From contig CACYWT010000003.1 of the NCBI GenBank assembly GCA_902778175.1, positions 1 to 64,000 on the forward strand: 64,000 bases of DNA. The letters are read 5' to 3'. This document shows positions 40,306-54,649 of the stretch, one piece after another. Numbering within the stretch: the first letter of the stretch is position 1; each line of letters begins with the position of its first letter. A program made the position numbers and the translations under genes. Below the pieces are notes generated by a model, which saw only the letters and a list, made by a program, of their open reading frames with translations, did not search any database and was not told where the DNA came from. Source of the DNA: an uncultured Ruminococcus sp. (GTDB taxonomy: Bacteria > Bacillota > Clostridia > Oscillospirales > Acutalibacteraceae).

Positions 40306-41571
40306 ATGAAAATTCTTGTTGTCGGCAGCGGCGGACGTGAGCATACGATAATCCGTAAGCTGAAGGAAAGCCCCCGTGTCGAAAAGATATATGCTGCCCC
40401 CGGAAACGGCGGTATTTCGAGAGATGCGCAGTGTGTTGCCATCGGAGCAATGGATAAGGAGGGCGTGGCTGAATTTGCCAAAGAAAACGGAATTGATCTT
40501 GTTTTCGTAGCGCCTGATGATCCGCTTGCTGACGGAATGGTCGATACGCTTACCGGAAAAGGTATCCGTGCTTTCGGACCTGTTGCATCTGCCGCAATAA
40601 TTGAAGGAAGTAAGGTTTTTTCAAAAAATCTTATGAAAAAATATGGTATTCCTACAGCAGGATATGAAGTATTTGTTGATCCTGCAAAAGCGATGGAATA
40701 TATTGAATCGAAGAATAAGTATCCTGTTGTTATCAAGGCGGATGGTCTTGCTCTCGGCAAAGGCGTTATCATAGCGTCAGACCATGATGAGGCTGCTGCT
40801 GCCGTAAAGGAAATAATGGAGGATAAGAAATTCGGAGATTCAGGCAATAATGTTGTTGTCGAAGAATTTCTTACCGGTCCGGAAGTGTCGGTTCTTGCAT
40901 TTACAGACGGTAAAGTTGTAAAGCCGATGGTTTCATCAAAGGATCATAAAAGGGCATATGACAATGACGAAGGACTCAATACCGGCGGAATGGGAACAAT
41001 AAGCCCGAATCCGTATTATACCGATGAAATTGCGGAGATCTGCCGCAAAACTATCTTTGAACCTACCATCGCGGCTATGAACAGCGAAGGAAGGACCTTC
41101 AAGGGCTGTCTGTATTTTGGTCTTATGATAACCCCCGACGGTCCGAAGGTGATCGAATATAATGCGCGTTTCGGTGATCCCGAAGCACAGGTTGTTCTTC
41201 CAAGACTGAAAACTGATCTTGTGGATATCATTGAAGCTGTAATTGATGAAAGACTCAGTGAAATAGATATACAGTGGAGCGAAGAAGCAACTGCCTGCGT
41301 AGTAATGGCTTCCGGCGGATATCCCCTTGCATACAAGAAGGGTCTTGAAATAAGCGGACTTGATGAAAACGGTCAGGTTGAGGGAGCAACAGTGTATCAT
41401 GCAGGAACAAAGTATGAAAACGGTAAGTTCCTGACAAACGGCGGTCGTGTACTAGGTATCACGGCTTCCGGAAAGACGCTTGACGAAGCTCTTGCCAAGG
41501 CTTACAATGCTGTCGGAAAGATCAGCTTTGAGGGCGCTCATTACCGCAGGGATATCGGAAAGACAAAATAA
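40306..41571 (+). CDS. purD: Phosphoribosylamine-glycine ligase (PurD)
   Basis: Joins phosphoribosylamine and glycine with ATP to give GAR. The N-terminal motif MKILVVGSGGREHTIIRKL and the ATP-grasp core, including VVIKADGLALGKGVIIA and LYFGLMITPDGPKVIEYNAR then FGDPEAQVVLPRL, are typical. I choose ATG 40306, 7 nt after CGGAGG, giving 421 residues; the TTG at 40288 precedes that site. It is the last gene of the purine operon. Confidence 0.97.
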   Translation: MKILVVGSGGREHTIIRKLKESPRVEKIYAAPGNGGISRDAQCVAIGAMDKEGVAEFAKENGIDLVFVAPDDPLADGMVDTLTGKGIRAFGPVASAAIIEGSKVFSKNLMKKYGIPTAGYEVFVDPAKAMEYIESKNKYPVVIKADGLALGKGVIIASDHDEAAAAVKEIMEDKKFGDSGNNVVVEEFLTGPEVSVLAFTDGKVVKPMVSSKDHKRAYDNDEGLNTGGMGTISPNPYYTDEIAEICRKTIFEPTIAAMNSEGRTFKGCLYFGLMITPDGPKVIEYNARFGDPEAQVVLPRLKTDLVDIIEAVIDERLSEIDIQWSEEATACVVMASGGYPLAYKKGLEISGLDENGQVEGATVYHAGTKYENGKFLTNGGRVLGITASGKTLDEALAKAYNAVGKISFEGAHYRRDIGKTK

Positions 41572-41653: not shown

Positions 41654-41682
41654 TATACATTTTAATAGTTTTGTTGTATAAT
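41654..41682 (+). promoter_or_regulatory. Probable promoter of the IS66-like gene
   Basis: TATAAT at 41677-41682, 17 nt after TATACA (41654-41659, 4 of 6 to consensus). The expected transcript start is around 41689, so the leader is at most about 33 nt. It follows the purine terminator and implies separate expression. Confidence 0.55.
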
Positions 41683-41721
41683 TTAATCATGCTGGACGAA
41701 AAAACTTTAAAAGAGAAAACT

Positions 41722-43341
41722 ATGATTATTACCCGTAAAGAGTATCAAAGGCTTGTGGACACAGCAAAAGCATATGAAATACTCAAGGATAAGAATCAGA
41801 GTCTTACTCTCGAAAACAAGACCCTTCTTTCCGATAATATCAGGCTCAGAAGGGTAGCAGAAGCGGATATTGAAGAAAAAAGACTGATGATCGCTGACAG
41901 ATTCGACCGTATATTAAACGAAGCCGAATTAATATTTGACAGGGAGGAAGTACGGACAGGTACAGAAAAACTTAAAGAGAACAGCGATAAAGAAGTCGAT
42001 TGGATCATCAGGGAAATGCGCAGTCTTCCGCCCAATGATGAACTTGACGATAATCTTCAATATGAATTTATCCGTGTACAATATCTGAAAAAGCAGTCTG
42101 TCTGTCCGTTCTGCAGCCGGAAGATGATAATAGACAATGAATTTCCGGTTACGGTTCTGAAAAAGACAGGACATCATGCTTTGCTGACTGATGAGATCTT
42201 CACAGGAATAAAATGCAGGAACTGCAATCATAAGCTGAAAAATATGTATGAATTTACAAGGTTTATCAATCCGGTGATCCATAATATCCACGTCGAACCT
42301 GAGATCCCGGCTGATCTTATTACCTGTAAGTTTGCTCATAAGGAATCCCTGCTCCATCAGGAATTGAGTTGGTCAGAGATGGGCTTGGAGCTTTCACACG
42401 CATCAATGGCTTTATGGATAAAAGAGGTATGTGAAAAATGGATCATTTCCGTTTATGAAAGCTACCGTTCTGCTCTGCTTGAAGAAAAAATGATATGCGC
42501 TGATGTGTACAAGATCTACGGATATGAATTAGGCAATAATGATATTTCCCTGAAAGGCAAGAAGCCTATGTATCTCTGGATATACCGTACCCCCGGCAGA
42601 TCAAAAAGGAAAATGATCATTTTTGAAATTTCAGACAGTGATGACAGTATTCATTCATCGTCCTTTCTTAATGGGTACAAGGGAATGATCCATACTGAAT
42701 CGCCGGAAGCATTTGAGTCAGCCGGCAGGAAATATCGTATACTTCCTTTATGGGAAAATGTCCGTCTGCTTTTTGAAAATGCGCTTGATTCGCTACATCC
42801 GCGCAGCCAGAAGGAATCCCTTGCGAAAAAAGGACTTGAGCTTTGCGATAAGCTTTCCCTTCTTGAGGATAACTTTATCGGTTCTGATGATGATATAAGA
42901 ATGCAGCTCAGATTATCAAAATGCAAGCCTGTGACCGACAAGCTTTTATCAATTGCCCGTGAGTTTATACTGAATGAGGCTGATCCGGAAATGAAAGGCC
43001 GTACAAGCAAAGCGATAGATTTCATTTGCAGATATGAAAAGGAACTTGAATATTATTATAAATATCCAGAGGTGGACACTGACAATTCATGGTGCCGCAA
43101 TGCCGCGTCAGAGTTTACCGACAGTGAAAACGGCTGGATCGTAATAAACACAAAAAGCGGCCACCGTTTTTCCGCAATGCTTTGCAGTATAATGAAAACA
43201 CTGCAGATAAATGATATCAATTCGGATCGTTTTCTGACATTTTGCATGAAGGTATTGGCAAATCCGCAGGTCGGAACAGATAAAAGCAGTTTCCTTCCGT
43301 GGAACGTACCGCCTGAATGTTGTGAATTATATGAAATATAA
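41722..43341 (+). CDS. IS66 TnpC-like protein without catalytic residues (putative domesticated transposase)
   Basis: Numbering is from ATG 41722 (539 residues). The order of parts is that of IS66 transposases: coiled coil (about 1-60), a C-x2-C ... C-x2-C zinc ribbon (Cys128, Cys131, Cys165, Cys168), a helical region with LITCKFAHKESLLHQELSWSE and LSHASMALWIKEVCEKW, then the core with MYLWIYRTPGRSK and the C-terminal YSIIET-like part SAMLCSIMKTLQIND. IS66 motifs ADET, TDGY and NLAERAIRP read ADVY, TESP and WCRNAASEF here, so two of the three catalytic acids are lost or replaced. No tnpA, tnpB or end repeats are seen. An ATG at 41689 is an alternative, possibly leaderless, start. Homology is by motif reading. 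Confidence 0.8.
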   Translation: MIITRKEYQRLVDTAKAYEILKDKNQSLTLENKTLLSDNIRLRRVAEADIEEKRLMIADRFDRILNEAELIFDREEVRTGTEKLKENSDKEVDWIIREMRSLPPNDELDDNLQYEFIRVQYLKKQSVCPFCSRKMIIDNEFPVTVLKKTGHHALLTDEIFTGIKCRNCNHKLKNMYEFTRFINPVIHNIHVEPEIPADLITCKFAHKESLLHQELSWSEMGLELSHASMALWIKEVCEKWIISVYESYRSALLEEKMICADVYKIYGYELGNNDISLKGKKPMYLWIYRTPGRSKRKMIIFEISDSDDSIHSSSFLNGYKGMIHTESPEAFESAGRKYRILPLWENVRLLFENALDSLHPRSQKESLAKKGLELCDKLSLLEDNFIGSDDDIRMQLRLSKCKPVTDKLLSIAREFILNEADPEMKGRTSKAIDFICRYEKELEYYYKYPEVDTDNSWCRNAASEFTDSENGWIVINTKSGHRFSAMLCSIMKTLQINDINSDRFLTFCMKVLANPQVGTDKSSFLPWNVPPECCELYEI

Positions 43342-43433: not shown

Positions 43434-43462
43434 TTGTAATTTCGGCATTAAGGCTGTATAAT
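43434..43462 (+). promoter_or_regulatory. Promoter of the hydrogenase operon
   Basis: TTGTAA (43434-43439), 17-nt spacer, TATAAT (43457-43462), 50 bp before the first hydrogenase gene. Confidence 0.8.
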
Positions 43463-43511
43463 ATAATTAATTTCAATTTATAGAAATAATACTTATTAGG
43501 AGGAATATCCT

Positions 43512-44021
43512 ATGGCAGAAACTTCCCTAACTTTCAAGGGGACCCCGGCTCAGGAAGAAAAGCTTAAAGCTGTTATTGAACAGAATAAAGCTCTTCCCGG
43601 AGCACTTTTGCCCGTTCTTCACGAGGCACAGGAGATCTATGGCTATCTCCCGATCGAGGTTCAGCAGATGGTTGCTGACGGTCTCGGCATATCGCTCAGT
43701 GAAGTATACGGCGTTGCGACTTTCTACTCACGCTTCAGCCTGACCCCGAAAGGCAAGCACCAGATCAATGTCTGTCTTGGTACGGCGTGCTATGTAAAAG
43801 GCTCGGATAAGATTCTTGAAGAAGTCGAGAAAAAACTCGGTATCAAGAGCGGAGAATGCACCCCCGATGGTCTTTTCTCGATCGATTCCTGCCGCTGCGT
43901 AGGCGCATGCGGTCTTGCACCGGTCATGATGATCGGTGAAGAGGTTTATGGTAAGCTTACCCCCAAGGAAGTCGGAAAAATTCTTGACAAATACATAAAT
44001 GAGGAAGGGGGACAGCAGTAA
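43512..44021 (+). CDS. hydC: Electron-bifurcating hydrogenase subunit, NuoE-like (HydC/HndA type)
   Basis: A 169-residue thioredoxin-like [2Fe-2S] subunit. The four cluster cysteines are in CLGTACYVKGS and CRCVGACGLAP. VLHEAQEIYGYLPIEVQQMV and GVATFYSRF are family marks of NuoE. As first gene of a NuoE-NuoF-HydA set it is part of the soluble [FeFe]-hydrogenase that couples NADH and ferredoxin to H2. A perfect AGGAGG site lies 8 nt before ATG. It overlaps the next gene by 1 nt. Symbol follows the Thermotoga HydABC naming. Confidence 0.93.
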   Translation: MAETSLTFKGTPAQEEKLKAVIEQNKALPGALLPVLHEAQEIYGYLPIEVQQMVADGLGISLSEVYGVATFYSRFSLTPKGKHQINVCLGTACYVKGSDKILEEVEKKLGIKSGECTPDGLFSIDSCRCVGACGLAPVMMIGEEVYGKLTPKEVGKILDKYINEEGGQQ

Positions 44022-45913
44022 TGACTCTTGAAGAACTTAATAAGATCAAAAAAGAAAACGAAGAGCTCGTTATGGTCAGAAAGGTCGTAAAGGAGCAGGG
44101 CGAGGAAATGGCTAAACATACCGGCTATCGCAAGCAGGTTCTTGTTTGCGGCGGTACAGGCTGTACTTCCTCAGGCAGCAAAAAGGTTCTTGCTGCTCTT
44201 GATAAAGCTTTGAAAGAAAACGGTCTTGAAGATGAGATCCTCGTAGTAAGAACCGGTTGTTTCGGTCTTTGCTCACTTGGTCCGATCATGATCGTATATC
44301 CCGAAGGCTGTTTCTATGCACAGGCTACACCGGAAGGAGTAGAGCGCATAGTCAAGGAACACCTCAAGGAAGGCAATATCGTAAAGGATCTCCTTTACAA
44401 GGAAACCGTACATGAAGACGGTTCTATAATTTCTCTTTCAGAAACAAACTTCTATAAGAAGCAGATGAGAATCGCTCTGAGAAACTGCGGCGTTATCGAC
44501 CCTGAGAATATCAAGGAATATATCGCTCTCGACGGTTATCAGGCACTCTATAAGGCTCTCACCACAATGACTCCCGACGAGGTTATCCAGGAGGTTCTGG
44601 ATTCAGGTCTTCGCGGAAGAGGCGGCGGCGGATTCCCGACCGGCAGAAAGTGGATGTTTGCAAAGGCATCACCCGGAGATATCAAGTATGTTGCTTGTAA
44701 TGCCGACGAAGGCGACCCGGGCGCATTCATGGACCGTTCCATTCTTGAAGGCGATCCGCAGTGTATCATCGAGGCTATGGCTATCGCAGGTTATGCAATA
44801 GGCGCACATAAGGGCTTCGTATATGTTCGTGCTGAGTATCCGATCGCAGTTGAAAGACTTCGTATCGCTATCAAGCAGGCAAGAGAATACGGCTTCCTCG
44901 GTGAGAATATCCTCGGCACAGGTTTCGATTTTGATATGGAGATCCGTCTTGGCGCAGGCGCATTCGTATGCGGCGAAGAAACAGCTCTTATGACTTCGAT
45001 CGAAGGCAACAGAGGTGAGCCTCGTCCTCGTCCTCCGTTCCCTGCAATCAAGGGTCTGTTTGAAAAGCCCACAGTACTCAACAATGTTGAAACTTATGCT
45101 AATATTGCCCAGATCATCTATAAGGGCAGCAAGTGGTATTCATCTATCGGTACTGAAAAGAGCAGAGGTACTAAGGTATTTGCTCTCGGCGGCAAGATCA
45201 CAAACGTAGGTCTTGTTGAGATCCCGATGGGTACTACGCTCCGTGAGATCATCGAAGAGATCGGCGGCGGTATCCCGAACGGCAAGAAGTTCAAGGCAGC
45301 TCAGACCGGCGGTCCTTCCGGCGGATGTATTCCTGCTGAGCATATAGATACTCCGATCGACTATGACGGACTTATCGCTATCGGATCCATGATGGGTTCC
45401 GGCGGTATGATCATTCTCGATGAAGATACCTGTATGGTAGATATCGCAAAATTCTATCTTGAGTTTACAGTTGATGAGAGCTGCGGTAAGTGTACTCCGT
45501 GCCGTGTAGGTACAAGAAGACTTCTCCAGTATCTTGACAAGATCACTCAGGGTAAGGGCGAGATGGAAGACCTCGAAAAGATCGAGGAGCTTGCTACACA
45601 TATGCAGAAATCATCTCTCTGCGCACTTGGTCAGACTGCGCCTAACCCGATCCTTTCAACCGTTAAATTCTTCAGAGATGAATATCTAGCTCATATTCAG
45701 GATAAGACCTGTCCTGCAGGCGTATGTAAATCCCTTATCCGCTATGAGATTATTGCAGATAAATGTAAGGGATGTACTCTTTGCGCAAGGAACTGTCCTG
45801 TCAAGGCAATTACAGGAACCGTTAAACAGCCTCACGTTATTGATCCGGAAAAATGTATTAAGTGCGGCGTCTGCATGAGCAACTGTAAGTTCGGCGCTAT
45901 TGTAACGAAATAA
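44021..45913 (+). CDS. hydB: Electron-bifurcating hydrogenase subunit, NuoF-like (HydB/HndC type)
   Basis: The FMN- and NAD(H)-binding subunit, where bifurcation is thought to occur. The N-terminal [2Fe-2S] thioredoxin-like domain has CGGTGCTSSG and RTGCFGLCSLGP; the flavin/NADH core has GLRGRGGGGFPTGRKW and NADEGDPGAFMDRS; the [4Fe-4S] site is in ESCGKCTPCRVGTRR with SSLCALGQTAPNP. The C-terminus adds two ferredoxin motifs, CKGCTLCARNCP and CIKCGVCMSNCK. 630 residues is typical of HydB. Confidence 0.95.
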   Translation: MTLEELNKIKKENEELVMVRKVVKEQGEEMAKHTGYRKQVLVCGGTGCTSSGSKKVLAALDKALKENGLEDEILVVRTGCFGLCSLGPIMIVYPEGCFYAQATPEGVERIVKEHLKEGNIVKDLLYKETVHEDGSIISLSETNFYKKQMRIALRNCGVIDPENIKEYIALDGYQALYKALTTMTPDEVIQEVLDSGLRGRGGGGFPTGRKWMFAKASPGDIKYVACNADEGDPGAFMDRSILEGDPQCIIEAMAIAGYAIGAHKGFVYVRAEYPIAVERLRIAIKQAREYGFLGENILGTGFDFDMEIRLGAGAFVCGEETALMTSIEGNRGEPRPRPPFPAIKGLFEKPTVLNNVETYANIAQIIYKGSKWYSSIGTEKSRGTKVFALGGKITNVGLVEIPMGTTLREIIEEIGGGIPNGKKFKAAQTGGPSGGCIPAEHIDTPIDYDGLIAIGSMMGSGGMIILDEDTCMVDIAKFYLEFTVDESCGKCTPCRVGTRRLLQYLDKITQGKGEMEDLEKIEELATHMQKSSLCALGQTAPNPILSTVKFFRDEYLAHIQDKTCPAGVCKSLIRYEIIADKCKGCTLCARNCPVKAITGTVKQPHVIDPEKCIKCGVCMSNCKFGAIVTK

Positions 45914-45928
45914 GGAGGGGTATGATTC

Positions 45929-47692
45929 ATGGAAACAGTACATCTGAAAATAAATAATATCCCTGTTGAAGTGCCAAAGGGTTATACTATTCTGCAGGCT
46001 GCTAAACAGGCAAATATCGAAATACCGACATTGTGCTACCTGAAGGATATCAACTGCATAGGTGCCTGTCGTGTATGTATGGTCGAAGCAAAGATGAACG
46101 GCAGACCCATGAGAGGTCTCCTCGCTGCCTGCGTATATCCGGCAGAAGAGGGTCTGGAGGTATTTACAAATACTCCTGCCGTTATCAAGTCAAGAAAGAC
46201 AACGATCGAGCTTCTTCTTTCTACTCACCACAAGAAATGTCTTTCCTGCGTCCGCAATAACAACTGCGAGCTGCAGAAGCTGGCTCTTGAATATGGCGTA
46301 GATGAGGATCGCTTTACATCTGAAGAGCCGATCTATGAGATCGACGAACAGTCACCCTATATTGTTCGTGATAACAATAAGTGCGTAAACTGTATGCGCT
46401 GCGTAGCTGCCTGTAAGAATGTACAGACAGTATCCGTTATCGGCGCTATCAGAAGAGGTTATCAGGTTCATGTCGGCAGTCCGTTCGACAAGAGCCTCAA
46501 TGATTCTCCCTGCGTAGGCTGCGGTCAGTGTATCGTAAGCTGCCCGGTAGGCGCTCTTACCGAAAAATCACAGGAAGACAAGGTATGGGATGCTATCAAT
46601 GATCCTGAGAAGGAAGTTATCTTCTTCACAGCTCCGTCTATCAAGGCTACACTCGGCGAAAGCTTCGGTATGCCTATCGGTACTAATGTAGAGAGCAAGA
46701 TGCCTGCTGCTATCCGTCGTCTTGGCGAAGGCGTAAAGGTATTTAATATGGACTTCACTGCTGACCTTACAATTCTTGAGGAAGCTAATGAGCTTATCCA
46801 GAGAGTTCAGAACGGCGGCACACTTCCGATGTTCACATCATGCTGCCCCGGTTGGGTCAAGTTTGTTGAGCATTATTATCCGGAATTTATTCCGAACCTT
46901 TCAACCTGTAAATCACCGCAGGCTATGTTCGGTGCAGTTCTCAAGGGCTATTATGCTCAGAAGAACGGTATCGACCCCAACAAGATCTTTGTTGTCAGCG
47001 TAATTCCCTGCACAGCCAAGAAGTTTGAATGTACTCGTCCGCAGCTCCGCTCCGGCGACGGTGACTATGATGATGTTGATATCGCTCTTACAACAAGAGA
47101 ACTTGCAAGAATGATAAAGAGAGCTCATATTGATTTTGCTGATCTTCCTGATGAGGATTATGATCTGCCCTTCAATAAGGCATCGGGCGGCGGCGTTATC
47201 TTCGGCGCTACCGGCGGTGTTCTTGAGGCTGCTCTCAGAACTGCTGCAAGGACACTTGACGGCGAATTCAAGAAAGTTGATTTTGAAGAAGTCAGAGGTC
47301 CTGAGGCTATCCGTGAGGTCACCTATGAGGTAGCAGGAATAAAGATCAATGTTGCTGTTACTTCCGGTCTTGGAAATGCCCGCAAGCTCCTTGAGAAGAT
47401 CAAGGCAGGCGAGGCTGATTACCAGATGGTAGAGATCATGGCTTGTCCCGGCGGTTGTATCAACGGCGGCGGTCAGCCCTATCAGAGCGACAGCGTCCGT
47501 AACTATGTTGATTATAAGGCTCTGCGTTCCAAGGCTCTTTATGATCAGGATCTGAACTGCGAATTCAGATGCAGTGATGAAAGCCCGATCATCAAGATGA
47601 TCTATGATGATTACTTTGAGGCTCCTGGCAAGGAGAAGGCTCACAAGTATCTCCATACATCATATGTAGCAAGAGGAAATAAGATGTCCTGA
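45929..47692 (+). CDS. hydA: [FeFe]-hydrogenase catalytic subunit HydA (HydA/HndD type)
   Basis: Catalyses H2 formation or uptake. N-terminal [2Fe-2S] domain (CYLKDINCIGACRVC), a His-Cys [4Fe-4S] site (THHKKCLSCVRNNNCELQ), two ferredoxin motifs (CVNCMRCVAACK, CVGCGQCIVSCP), then the H-cluster domain: FTSCCPGWVKF (Cys305, Cys306), SVIPCTAKKFE (Cys361) and EIMACPGGCINGGGQP. The second motif has Ile359 where Met is usual. 587 residues, no extra C-terminal cluster domain. It ends an operon with the NuoE- and NuoF-like subunits. The AAGGAGG site is 10 nt before ATG. A strong terminator follows. Confidence 0.96.
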   Translation: METVHLKINNIPVEVPKGYTILQAAKQANIEIPTLCYLKDINCIGACRVCMVEAKMNGRPMRGLLAACVYPAEEGLEVFTNTPAVIKSRKTTIELLLSTHHKKCLSCVRNNNCELQKLALEYGVDEDRFTSEEPIYEIDEQSPYIVRDNNKCVNCMRCVAACKNVQTVSVIGAIRRGYQVHVGSPFDKSLNDSPCVGCGQCIVSCPVGALTEKSQEDKVWDAINDPEKEVIFFTAPSIKATLGESFGMPIGTNVESKMPAAIRRLGEGVKVFNMDFTADLTILEEANELIQRVQNGGTLPMFTSCCPGWVKFVEHYYPEFIPNLSTCKSPQAMFGAVLKGYYAQKNGIDPNKIFVVSVIPCTAKKFECTRPQLRSGDGDYDDVDIALTTRELARMIKRAHIDFADLPDEDYDLPFNKASGGGVIFGATGGVLEAALRTAARTLDGEFKKVDFEEVRGPEAIREVTYEVAGIKINVAVTSGLGNARKLLEKIKAGEADYQMVEIMACPGGCINGGGQPYQSDSVRNYVDYKALRSKALYDQDLNCEFRCSDESPIIKMIYDDYFEAPGKEKAHKYLHTSYVARGNKMS

Positions 47693-51471: not shown

Positions 51472-53010
51472 ATGTATGAATTTATACGGGAATTAAAAAA
51501 AATGTACGCTCCCGAAAAGAAAAGGGAGATACAGTCAAAGCCTCATGAAATAACACATTCGCTGAAATACAATATAGGATATATCAGACGCTTATTCAGA
51601 GATTCTCCCGATCTGACAATACATGAGATCAAGCTCAGCGGGACCGATGCCGCAGTAATATCTATAGATAATCTGATAAATAAGGATACGCTTGCTTTTT
51701 CTGTACTCAAGCCCGTTCTTTCGTATTCCTTCGGAAACGACCCGGAAGATAATCTCAATACGATCTGTGAAAAGGTATTGTATACTGATGATATTACGAA
51801 AATAACAACATTTGAGGAACTCAGCAGTTTTATTTTATCGGGCTTTTGCGTGATCGCAGTCGAAGGCGCAGCTGCAATGCTGTCGGTAGGAATACAGGGA
51901 TTCAAATCGAGAAGTATTTCCGAGCCTGAATCCGACGTGATACAGCGCGGATCAAAGGAAGGATTTGTCGAAGCTGTCCATACAAATATGTCAATGCTGC
52001 GCAGAAAAATGAAAACTCCCGGTCTTATACTTGAATTATCCTCTGTAGGCAGACTGAGCGGAACAGAGATATGTATATGTTACCTTGCCGACAGGGCGGA
52101 CAGGTCTATTGTCAAAGAACTGAAACGCCGTCTGAACAGTATTGATATTGACACTGTTCTTGCAGCAGGATATCTTGTTCCTTATATTGAGGATAATGAT
52201 GGTATTTCTCCGTTCAGCACCGTAGGAATAACCGAAAGACCGGATACTGTCTGCGGAAAGATCAGCGAGGGAAGGATCGCCGTTCTTATTGACGGAGTAC
52301 CTTCTGCGCTGATCGTACCATATCTTTTTGCCGAATACTTTCAGACGCTTGACGATTATTCAAACAGACCATATTTTGCCACATTTACAAGATGGCTGAA
52401 ATTCGCTGCATTTTTCATATCAATACTTCTGCCCGGATTATTTGTTGCGCTTTGTACCTTTGATCAGGAAATGTTTCCCTCGCTCATGCTGAATAAGATA
52501 GCGGGAGCGGTTGCATCGACGCCATTGTCGCTTATGGGCGAAATGATAATAATTCAGTTTATTTACGAAATAATGCGTGAATCCGGACTTCGTATGCCGC
52601 AGCCGCTCGGATATGCAGTGAGCATAGTAGGAGGTCTTGTAATAGGGGATACTGCTATAAATGCCGGGCTTATCGGAGCGCCTACACTTATGGCGGCGGC
52701 AATGGCGGCGATCTGTTCGTATGTAATACCGAATCTATATGCTCCGTCAGCAATACTTCGTTTTGCTTTTACAATAGCAGGAGGATTTTTCGGGATCTGG
52801 GGAATATCAATTCTTTTTTGTGCTGTATTTATAAATATATGCAGCAAAACAAGCTTCGGAATTCCATTTACTTCGCCGGTCACTCCGACAGGCTTTTCTT
52901 CATTCAGAGATGTATTTATCAGAGCCGGTTGGAAAGTGCTTGCCCGTAATCCAGCTAAAATTCAGAATATGCCCGGAACTTCCGCGCCCGGAGGTACAGA
53001 GAATGACTAA
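51472..53010 (+). CDS. Spore germination protein, GerA family (GerAA type)
   Basis: The A subunit of a germinant receptor in the inner spore membrane. The 512-residue protein has a large N-terminal cytoplasmic domain (about 1-290, with DAAVISIDNLINKD and PFSTVGITERPDTVCGK then EGRIAVLIDGVPSALIVPYLF), then five or six membrane helices (about 305-470) containing LGYAVSIVGGLVIGDTAI. A strong GGAGGGG site precedes the ATG. It overlaps the gerB-like gene by 8 nt. The germinant is not predictable. Confidence 0.9.
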   Translation: MYEFIRELKKMYAPEKKREIQSKPHEITHSLKYNIGYIRRLFRDSPDLTIHEIKLSGTDAAVISIDNLINKDTLAFSVLKPVLSYSFGNDPEDNLNTICEKVLYTDDITKITTFEELSSFILSGFCVIAVEGAAAMLSVGIQGFKSRSISEPESDVIQRGSKEGFVEAVHTNMSMLRRKMKTPGLILELSSVGRLSGTEICICYLADRADRSIVKELKRRLNSIDIDTVLAAGYLVPYIEDNDGISPFSTVGITERPDTVCGKISEGRIAVLIDGVPSALIVPYLFAEYFQTLDDYSNRPYFATFTRWLKFAAFFISILLPGLFVALCTFDQEMFPSLMLNKIAGAVASTPLSLMGEMIIIQFIYEIMRESGLRMPQPLGYAVSIVGGLVIGDTAINAGLIGAPTLMAAAMAAICSYVIPNLYAPSAILRFAFTIAGGFFGIWGISILFCAVFINICSKTSFGIPFTSPVTPTGFSSFRDVFIRAGWKVLARNPAKIQNMPGTSAPGGTEND

Positions 53011-54649
53011 AAAAGAATATATAAGCAGCACCCAGTTGTTTACCTTGCTGTTTGTGATAACTGTTTCTGATATTATCCTTAATCCCGATACTTGTAAGGA
53101 TCAGGGATATGCAGCATTAGTCTTTGCCGGAATGATGATTTTTTGTCTGTTATCATTTTTGACAGTTTATTTTTCAGATCATTACAGAAAAAAAGCATCA
53201 TTATCATCACCCAAGACAGTAAATTCCCTGTGGATATTTGGTTTTATTTATTTATCTGTATATCATCTGTATACTTTTGCTAACTTTATTGAAAAATTGA
53301 ACGGAAATATAATTCCGTCATTACCAATAATATTTTTATTGTTTATATCAGCAGCATATTCTGCGTTTAAGGGAATAGAGGCGACAGCGCGTTTTTCAGC
53401 GATAGTATTTATCAGTATAATTCTTTTTTCTATATTATATTTTGTTTTTCTTTATCCGTCTTACCGACCGGAAAATATATCTTCTTTTTCATCAGGCATA
53501 AACGGAAACAAAAGCTTTTTTGCTTTTATAACATTATTTGAAGAGTATACTGTAATGCTTCTGCTCAGCCGGAATACAAAAGGTAATTATCTTCGCAGCG
53601 GAATGATTTGGAATGTCCTTCAGACCGTCTTTTTGATTTCATTTTTGATATTGATTGCCGGTTCTCTGGGTGAATATTTGATAGAGATATATTTTCCGGT
53701 TTTTCATGCGTCAGACGGAGTCGGAAGTCTGCAAAGATTCAGACCTTTCTTTGTATCCGTAACAATAGGGTCATTGTTCTGTACGCTTTCAACTGAGTTT
53801 TATCTTATCTATAGGTTTACTGCGGAAATGATACGGGATAAAAGCAGTATAAGAAGAAAAAATATATATGTTTTTTTAGCGGTCTTCATTTTATATCTCA
53901 TAATATCATCTTTTCCGGGTCTTTATGACGTGATCTATGATTTAAAGCTAATGACAGCGGTAATTCTCATATCAGTATTTGTATTACCGGTTTTGACTTT
54001 ATTCAGCAGCCGTATCAGAAGAACAAATATAGTCAGGACGGCAGGTTTGCTTGTTTTACTGTTATCCTGTGCAATTATATCAAGCGGCTGCAATTCCAAC
54101 CAGCTCAATCAAAGAATAATAGTACAGGGAATAGGGATCGACAGGAATGATGATAGTTGTCTTGTAACGCTTATTGCATTGGATACGGATTCCCGTCAGA
54201 CAGGGAATCAGGTTCAGCTGATCTATTCAAATGGAAAAACAGTAGAAAACGCCCTGATCGCAGCTGAAAAAAGGCAGGGAAAAAAGCTTTTGCTGAGTCA
54301 GTGTCTTTTTCTTATGCTTAATAAGGACGCTGCGTATGATACAGAAGATACGCTGTCATATTTTATAGATAATAATGATATTATGAAAACAACAAATATC
54401 ATGGTTTCGGATAAAGCGGAAGAAATGCTGACAAATGCAATAAACGAGCTTGATTATACTTCGGAAAAAATAAATGTTCTGTCAGACAGCAATGCAATTA
54501 ATCAGTCGGCATATCATTTTTCAATATTTGATTATGTGAACGTAAAAAACGGCAATGCGAAAGAGATCTTCATTCCCTATATCATTGAGGATAAAAAGCT
54601 GAAATGTCTGCGGACAGACGATAAACACTGTCTGCGCTTGACTTTATAA
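53003..54649 (+). CDS. GerB-GerC fusion: spore germination permease joined to a truncated lipoprotein
   Basis: Residues 1-340 form a GerAB-type permease of the APC superfamily with about ten membrane helices, starting KKEYISSTQLFTLLF. Near residue 347 the sequence RRTNIVRTAGLLVLLLSCA continues as a GerAC-type signal peptide with a lipobox-like ISSGC, then the GerAC N-terminal region (NQRIIVQGIGIDRND...). In relatives these are two genes; here they are one frame. The GerAC part stops after about 180 residues, about half of the usual length. Start ATG 53003 follows CGGAGG. Confidence 0.82.
   Translation: MTKKEYISSTQLFTLLFVITVSDIILNPDTCKDQGYAALVFAGMMIFCLLSFLTVYFSDHYRKKASLSSPKTVNSLWIFGFIYLSVYHLYTFANFIEKLNGNIIPSLPIIFLLFISAAYSAFKGIEATARFSAIVFISIILFSILYFVFLYPSYRPENISSFSSGINGNKSFFAFITLFEEYTVMLLLSRNTKGNYLRSGMIWNVLQTVFLISFLILIAGSLGEYLIEIYFPVFHASDGVGSLQRFRPFFVSVTIGSLFCTLSTEFYLIYRFTAEMIRDKSSIRRKNIYVFLAVFILYLIISSFPGLYDVIYDLKLMTAVILISVFVLPVLTLFSSRIRRTNIVRTAGLLVLLLSCAIISSGCNSNQLNQRIIVQGIGIDRNDDSCLVTLIALDTDSRQTGNQVQLIYSNGKTVENALIAAEKRQGKKLLLSQCLFLMLNKDAAYDTEDTLSYFIDNNDIMKTTNIMVSDKAEEMLTNAINELDYTSEKINVLSDSNAINQSAYHFSIFDYVNVKNGNAKEIFIPYIIEDKKLKCLRTDDKHCLRLTL

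Follow-up and report, generated by a model that had tools for sequence, protein, structure and literature searches.

To our knowledge, well-documented captures of DDE IS transposases for a non-catalytic role appear to be rare in bacteria. TldR proteins, which arose as nuclease-dead relatives of the transposon protein TnpB, offer a parallel to the gene described here in that both are catalytically dead, transposon-derived proteins kept for another role, although TldR arose from an RNA-guided nuclease and the present protein from a DDE/RNase H transposase, with so far no hint of a guide RNA. TldR proteins control flagellin as RNA-guided transcription factors (PMC13418256). Cas1, which derives from a casposase, belongs to the mobile-element enzymes exapted in prokaryotes (reviewed in PMC8987985); like the present protein it comes from an element that no longer moves and is passed on vertically with purifying selection acting on it, but it has kept its catalysis as the integrase of spacer acquisition whereas the active site considered here has been lost. 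The text of that review does not mention IS66, and the literature searched, which consisted of open-licence papers, described no host protein derived from IS66, an absence that is weak evidence of novelty.

The closest described system is the IS66 transposase TnpC (PF03050, PF13817, NF033517). The 64,000-nt stretch of DNA analysed here (the window) carries a dead IS66 TnpC-derived gene, labelled DOM, which is homologous to TnpC along most of its length, from the coil and zinc ribbon through the helical region and RNase H core to the C-terminal element. It differs in lacking the D-D-E triad and the tnpA and tnpB partners, in that no terminal repeats were found, in being acidic and present as a single copy at a fixed locus, and in scoring below the cut-off of NF033517. 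In the window, purD precedes DOM and the hndA-nuoF-hydA hydrogenase genes follow it, every gene on the + strand:

40306..41571, + strand: purD (PF01071, PF02844, PF02843), the gene kept upstream of DOM throughout the purD-linked group, by synteny
41654..41682, + strand: DOM promoter-like TATACA-17-TATAAT, with 6 nt between its end and the ATG
41689..43341, + strand: dead IS66 TnpC-derived gene (DOM, 550 aa), PF03050 E 2e-19, start set by orthologues
43434..43462, + strand: hndA promoter TTGTAA-17-TATAAT, conserved whether or not DOM is present
43512..44021, + strand: hndA (2Fe-2S thioredoxin-like subunit), conserved downstream neighbour, by synteny
44021-45913, + strand: nuoF-like gene after hndA, by domain matches and synteny
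45929-47692, + strand: [FeFe] hydrogenase gene after the nuoF-like gene, by domain matches and synteny

The initial annotation had placed the start at 41722, giving 539 residues, but this codon is an internal Met. Orthologue N-termini begin alike (MLxEExxK...) and have an 11-residue extension in common, and the start of DOM is therefore the ATG at 41689, which opens a complete ORF of 550 residues. The view of the product as an intact IS66 TnpC-like protein is borne out by PF03050 (DDE_Tnp_IS66), which matches at E 1.9e-19 and 70.6 bits, well above the cut-off of 23.1. The NCBIfam IS66 equivalog NF033517 scores 99.5 bits and does not reach its cut-off of 180, so that DOM counts as a relative rather than as a standard IS66 transposase. 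In HMM searches of the aligned orthologues, PF03050 matched 18/18 and PF13817 (IS66_C) 14/18. The full TnpC architecture described earlier is present, with the coil, the four zinc-ribbon cysteines, the helical region, the core and the C-terminal helices all found; the zinc ribbon is a prediction from its four cysteines:

41734..41862, + strand: N-terminal coiled coil, residues 16-58 (AlphaFold model helix 16-58, alignment)
42103..42225, + strand: zinc ribbon C139, C142, C176 and C179, invariant in 18/18 aligned orthologues
42259..42480, + strand: helical, HTH-like region, residues 191-264 (alignment, AlphaFold model)

The RNase H fold expected of the core is retained in an AlphaFold2 model (pLDDT 83.6, pTM 0.79), computed from an alignment of the window protein with five orthologues and five IS66 sequences. 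The best solved structure retrieved by Foldseek was the ISCth4 transposase (E 1.2e-6), for which VIA-align gave a Z of 11.5, with retroviral integrase cores at about 6.5-8.5; a search of solved structures with the DOM sequence gave nothing significant. DOM is thus predicted to keep the fold and not the chemistry, and the true IS66 sequences in the input may favour this fold.

Alignment with IS66 homologues that keep D-D-E confirmed the earlier mapping of the catalytic positions:

42502..42504, + strand: first catalytic Asp position, D272, kept in the window protein and altered in several orthologues
42697..42699, + strand: second catalytic Asp position, now E337, by alignment
43096..43098, + strand: catalytic Glu position, now R470, by alignment

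In the window protein ADET has become ADVY with D272 retained, TDGY has become TESP with the Asp replaced by E337, and NNRAER has become NSWCRN with the Glu replaced by R470, the Arg459 of the earlier numbering. All three residues are present in 19/19 full IS66 homologues used as comparison, and a complete triad occurs in none of the DOM members with readable positions. Position 1 is occupied by D, E, G or A, position 2 by D, E, G, S, C, V or other residues, and position 3 by R, D, C, Q, S, A, N, K, L, I or V; a Glu is found at position 3 in two members, both of which lack the residue at position 1. The Asp and the second-position Glu of the window protein, with its predicted RNase H fold, could be taken to indicate a transposase that is still active with an altered active site and acts in trans on non-autonomous elements. 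Since the orthologues vary freely at all three positions, and the gene is single copy at a fixed locus, we consider such activity highly improbable.

As judged from the aligned sequences, conservation in DOM has moved off the catalytic core. The Glu region, which is the most conserved part of IS66 with a mean pair identity of 0.62, falls to 0.29 in DOM, whereas for the C-terminal element the figure increases from 0.32 to 0.40, the highest value in DOM. IS66-invariant residues around the active site are gone, those at the H357, R359 and R360 positions being lost or variable; the zinc-ribbon cysteines are retained, as are residues in the core, for example W355 and G332, and the helical region is comparatively conserved. 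All 18 aligned members are acidic, with pI values of 4.8-6.3 that do not overlap with the 6.4-9.1 of 19 IS66 proteins, and the mean net charge is -16.5 as against +2.4 for IS66. This uniform acidic shift and the disappearance of basic residues that IS66 conserves around the active site, together with constraint over all domains and the C-terminal element as the most conserved region, would suit a domesticated protein-protein scaffold that does not bind DNA and assembles with itself or with host proteins via the coil, the zinc ribbon and the C-terminal element. However, many bacterial regulators are also acidic, the zinc ribbon and helical region have been retained and no partner is known, and we regard a scaffold as rather unlikely.

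In relatives the position is fixed with respect to hndA: this gene comes next after DOM in 15 of the 16 loci where the downstream side is visible, the sole exception being G237, where DOM adjoins a tsf-like gene. Upstream, one group of loci has purD next to DOM and another has V-ATPase subunits B and D. At one locus (L015 / L147, G245) hndA lies in two frames, owing to a frameshift or an assembly error. The initial annotation was also right that tnpA and tnpB are missing, the neighbours being purD and hndA with no TnpB nearby, and TnpB_IS66 was never adjacent to DOM in any of the DOM loci searched. The only TnpB match in the window genome is a fragment near a contig end (C26:144-314), and two IS66 TnpC fragments in opposite orientation lie near the end of a further contig (C7:68730-69728). 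As to the reported absence of end repeats, no convincing terminal repeats were seen around DOM, where the search for terminal inverted repeats gave only AT-rich imperfect inverted pairs; degraded ends are possible, and to that extent the claim stands in part.

Orthologues of DOM occur in 21 of the 64 genomes of the genus, comprising 18 full-length aligned copies and three more: that of G208 falls on two contigs, that of G229 is very diverged and that of G233 is truncated where its contig ends. They were sorted by position and tree from matches found in 29 genomes with a single-protein query and in 33 with a profile, the remainder being IS66 elements or fragments. Among the genus genomes the orthologues are neither multi-copy nor variable in position. 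The G229 copy (L110:1065-3188, - strand) is the most diverged member, with a branch of 1.64, and its open frame overlaps purD. A scan of genome contigs with a single DOM protein gave no match. The 18-row alignment was too diverged to serve as a query, and a six-row alignment used instead retrieved six loci, each of them from a MAG labelled uncultured Ruminococcus or Clostridiales; the named records carry RUG isolate names, which we take to mean rumen uncultured genomes. About 790 genomes sampled from the family and order yielded IS66 homologues but no DOM gene beyond the genus, and those homologues that were checked keep the catalytic motifs.

The DOM orthologues form one clade with a support of 100/100. 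In the HndA+NuoF tree the carriers fall into one 17-genome clade with three non-carriers, which calls for one gain and two losses, and in the purD tree the non-carriers G226 and G256 are nested among carriers with moderate support, in agreement with the DOM tree. Read from these trees, DOM is inherited vertically. The DOM and hnd trees conflict (AU p 1.7e-4); since the purD tree agrees with that of DOM, hnd is the odd one, and horizontal allele swapping of DOM was rejected. The HndA+NuoF tree puts G250/G208 with the window species, which purD and DOM do not, possibly through recombination of the hnd operon. The purD-hndA gap of G226 holds no DOM coding remnant and still carries a TATAAT-ATG arrangement, which would be a leftover DOM promoter.

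Values of dN/dS (Nei-Gojobori) for the two closest DOM pairs are 0.067 and 0.066, with dS about 1.3-1.4, and 0.11-0.14 for more distant pairs, where dS is near saturation; the ratio among orthologues is thus not near 1, and replacement changes are fewer than silent ones in every domain. A decaying, non-functional IS66 remnant would account for the lost catalytic residues and the absent partners, but full-length ORFs in diverged species, dN/dS of 0.07-0.14, invariant zinc-ribbon cysteines and a conserved promoter and locus make decay extremely doubtful, and it was rejected. The significant IS66 match, the single copy at a fixed locus and the low dN/dS argue together for selection for a non-transposition role, in line with the earlier suggestion of a long, intact yet apparently inactive transposase kept for another purpose. 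Domestication is strongly supported: DOM is, on sequence evidence, very probably a domesticated IS66 TnpC whose active site has decayed and which is inherited vertically under purifying selection and does another job for the cell in one branch of rumen Ruminococcus. Its function lends itself to direct tests, because the gene arose once, in one subclade, has stayed at one locus under a conserved promoter and has natural knock-outs in G226 and G256/G259.

DOM diverges faster than its neighbours, with both dN and dS higher; between the window and L147, identity is 58.5% for DOM, 92.1% for purD and 99.0% for nuoF. This fast divergence, and the retention of an IS66 architecture with coil and fold, could reflect a host immunity factor, the dead TnpC working as a dominant-negative subunit to poison, in trans, the transposition of invading IS66 elements, and G256 (L093), which is secondarily DOM-less, has five TnpB_IS66 matches, more than any other genome of the genus. 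If true, a vertically inherited host protein would block IS66 in trans, a form of genomic immunity drawn from the parasite's own enzyme. Yet intact TnpB is present in 1/21 carriers, namely G221, as against 7/43 non-carriers, and mutual exclusion of IS66 and DOM was rejected as not significant over the 64 genomes (Fisher p 0.25); the window genome itself has IS66 fragments. PADLOC defence-system annotation of the DOM members yielded just one homing-endonuclease match, in one member. An immunity role appears less likely still than a scaffold, though both are live rivals to a role in DNA binding.

The existence of an own promoter, asserted earlier, is supported by the promoter-like sequence six nt ahead of ATG 41689, and the layout TATAC[AT]-17-TATAAT-6/7-ATG is common to seven species, six with purD seen upstream and one cut by a contig end. 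With TATAAT only 6 or 7 nt before the ATG, transcription would begin at or next to the start codon, and the DOM transcript is therefore probably leaderless in those seven species. V-ATPase-linked members carry Shine-Dalgarno-like sequences rather than the leaderless layout, and in L027 DOM starts directly past the purD stop.

Very probably, an IS66 element inserted once near the hnd hydrogenase operon in the ancestor of this Ruminococcus subclade and left only a captured tnpC, with loss of tnpA, tnpB and the ends and decay of the D-D-E residues; what remains would be a folded, non-catalytic platform that keeps the RNase H scaffold along with the coiled coil, the zinc ribbon and the C-terminal element. 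In the most likely mechanism, the coiled coil would bring DOM into an oligomer and the zinc-ribbon/helical N-terminal half would bind a specific DNA site without cutting it, DOM then acting as a transcriptional regulator with its own conserved leaderless promoter probably among the targets, a putative autoregulation. To this whole explanation, captured tnpC and DNA-binding regulator together, we assign a probability of roughly 0.5; the regulator mechanism taken by itself, a coiled-coil oligomer that binds DNA and probably its own promoter, is put forward tentatively, at somewhat below even odds. The suggestion in the initial annotation of a role other than transposition is well supported, whereas DNA binding, given there as an example, is a possible role: the invariant zinc-ribbon cysteines and the relatively conserved helical region count for it, and the acidity of the family, the loss of IS66-invariant active-site residues and an hndA promoter that is the same with or without DOM count against it.

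No operator was identified. An obvious control of hnd by DOM was rejected, the hndA promoter being identical in DOM-less species and an adjacent dyad not following DOM. This dyad, TTTCA-N(5-8)-TGAAAT, lies after the hndA promoter (window 43434-43511 region) and is conserved in part of the genus; it is found in the DOM-less G226, G256 and G259 and is absent from V-ATPase-linked carriers. It is independent of DOM and possibly serves as an operator or hairpin for hydrogenase control. Further along the window, the C-terminal part of a GC-poor (35%) ORF at 52910-54649 contains a spore germination domain of the GerAC type.
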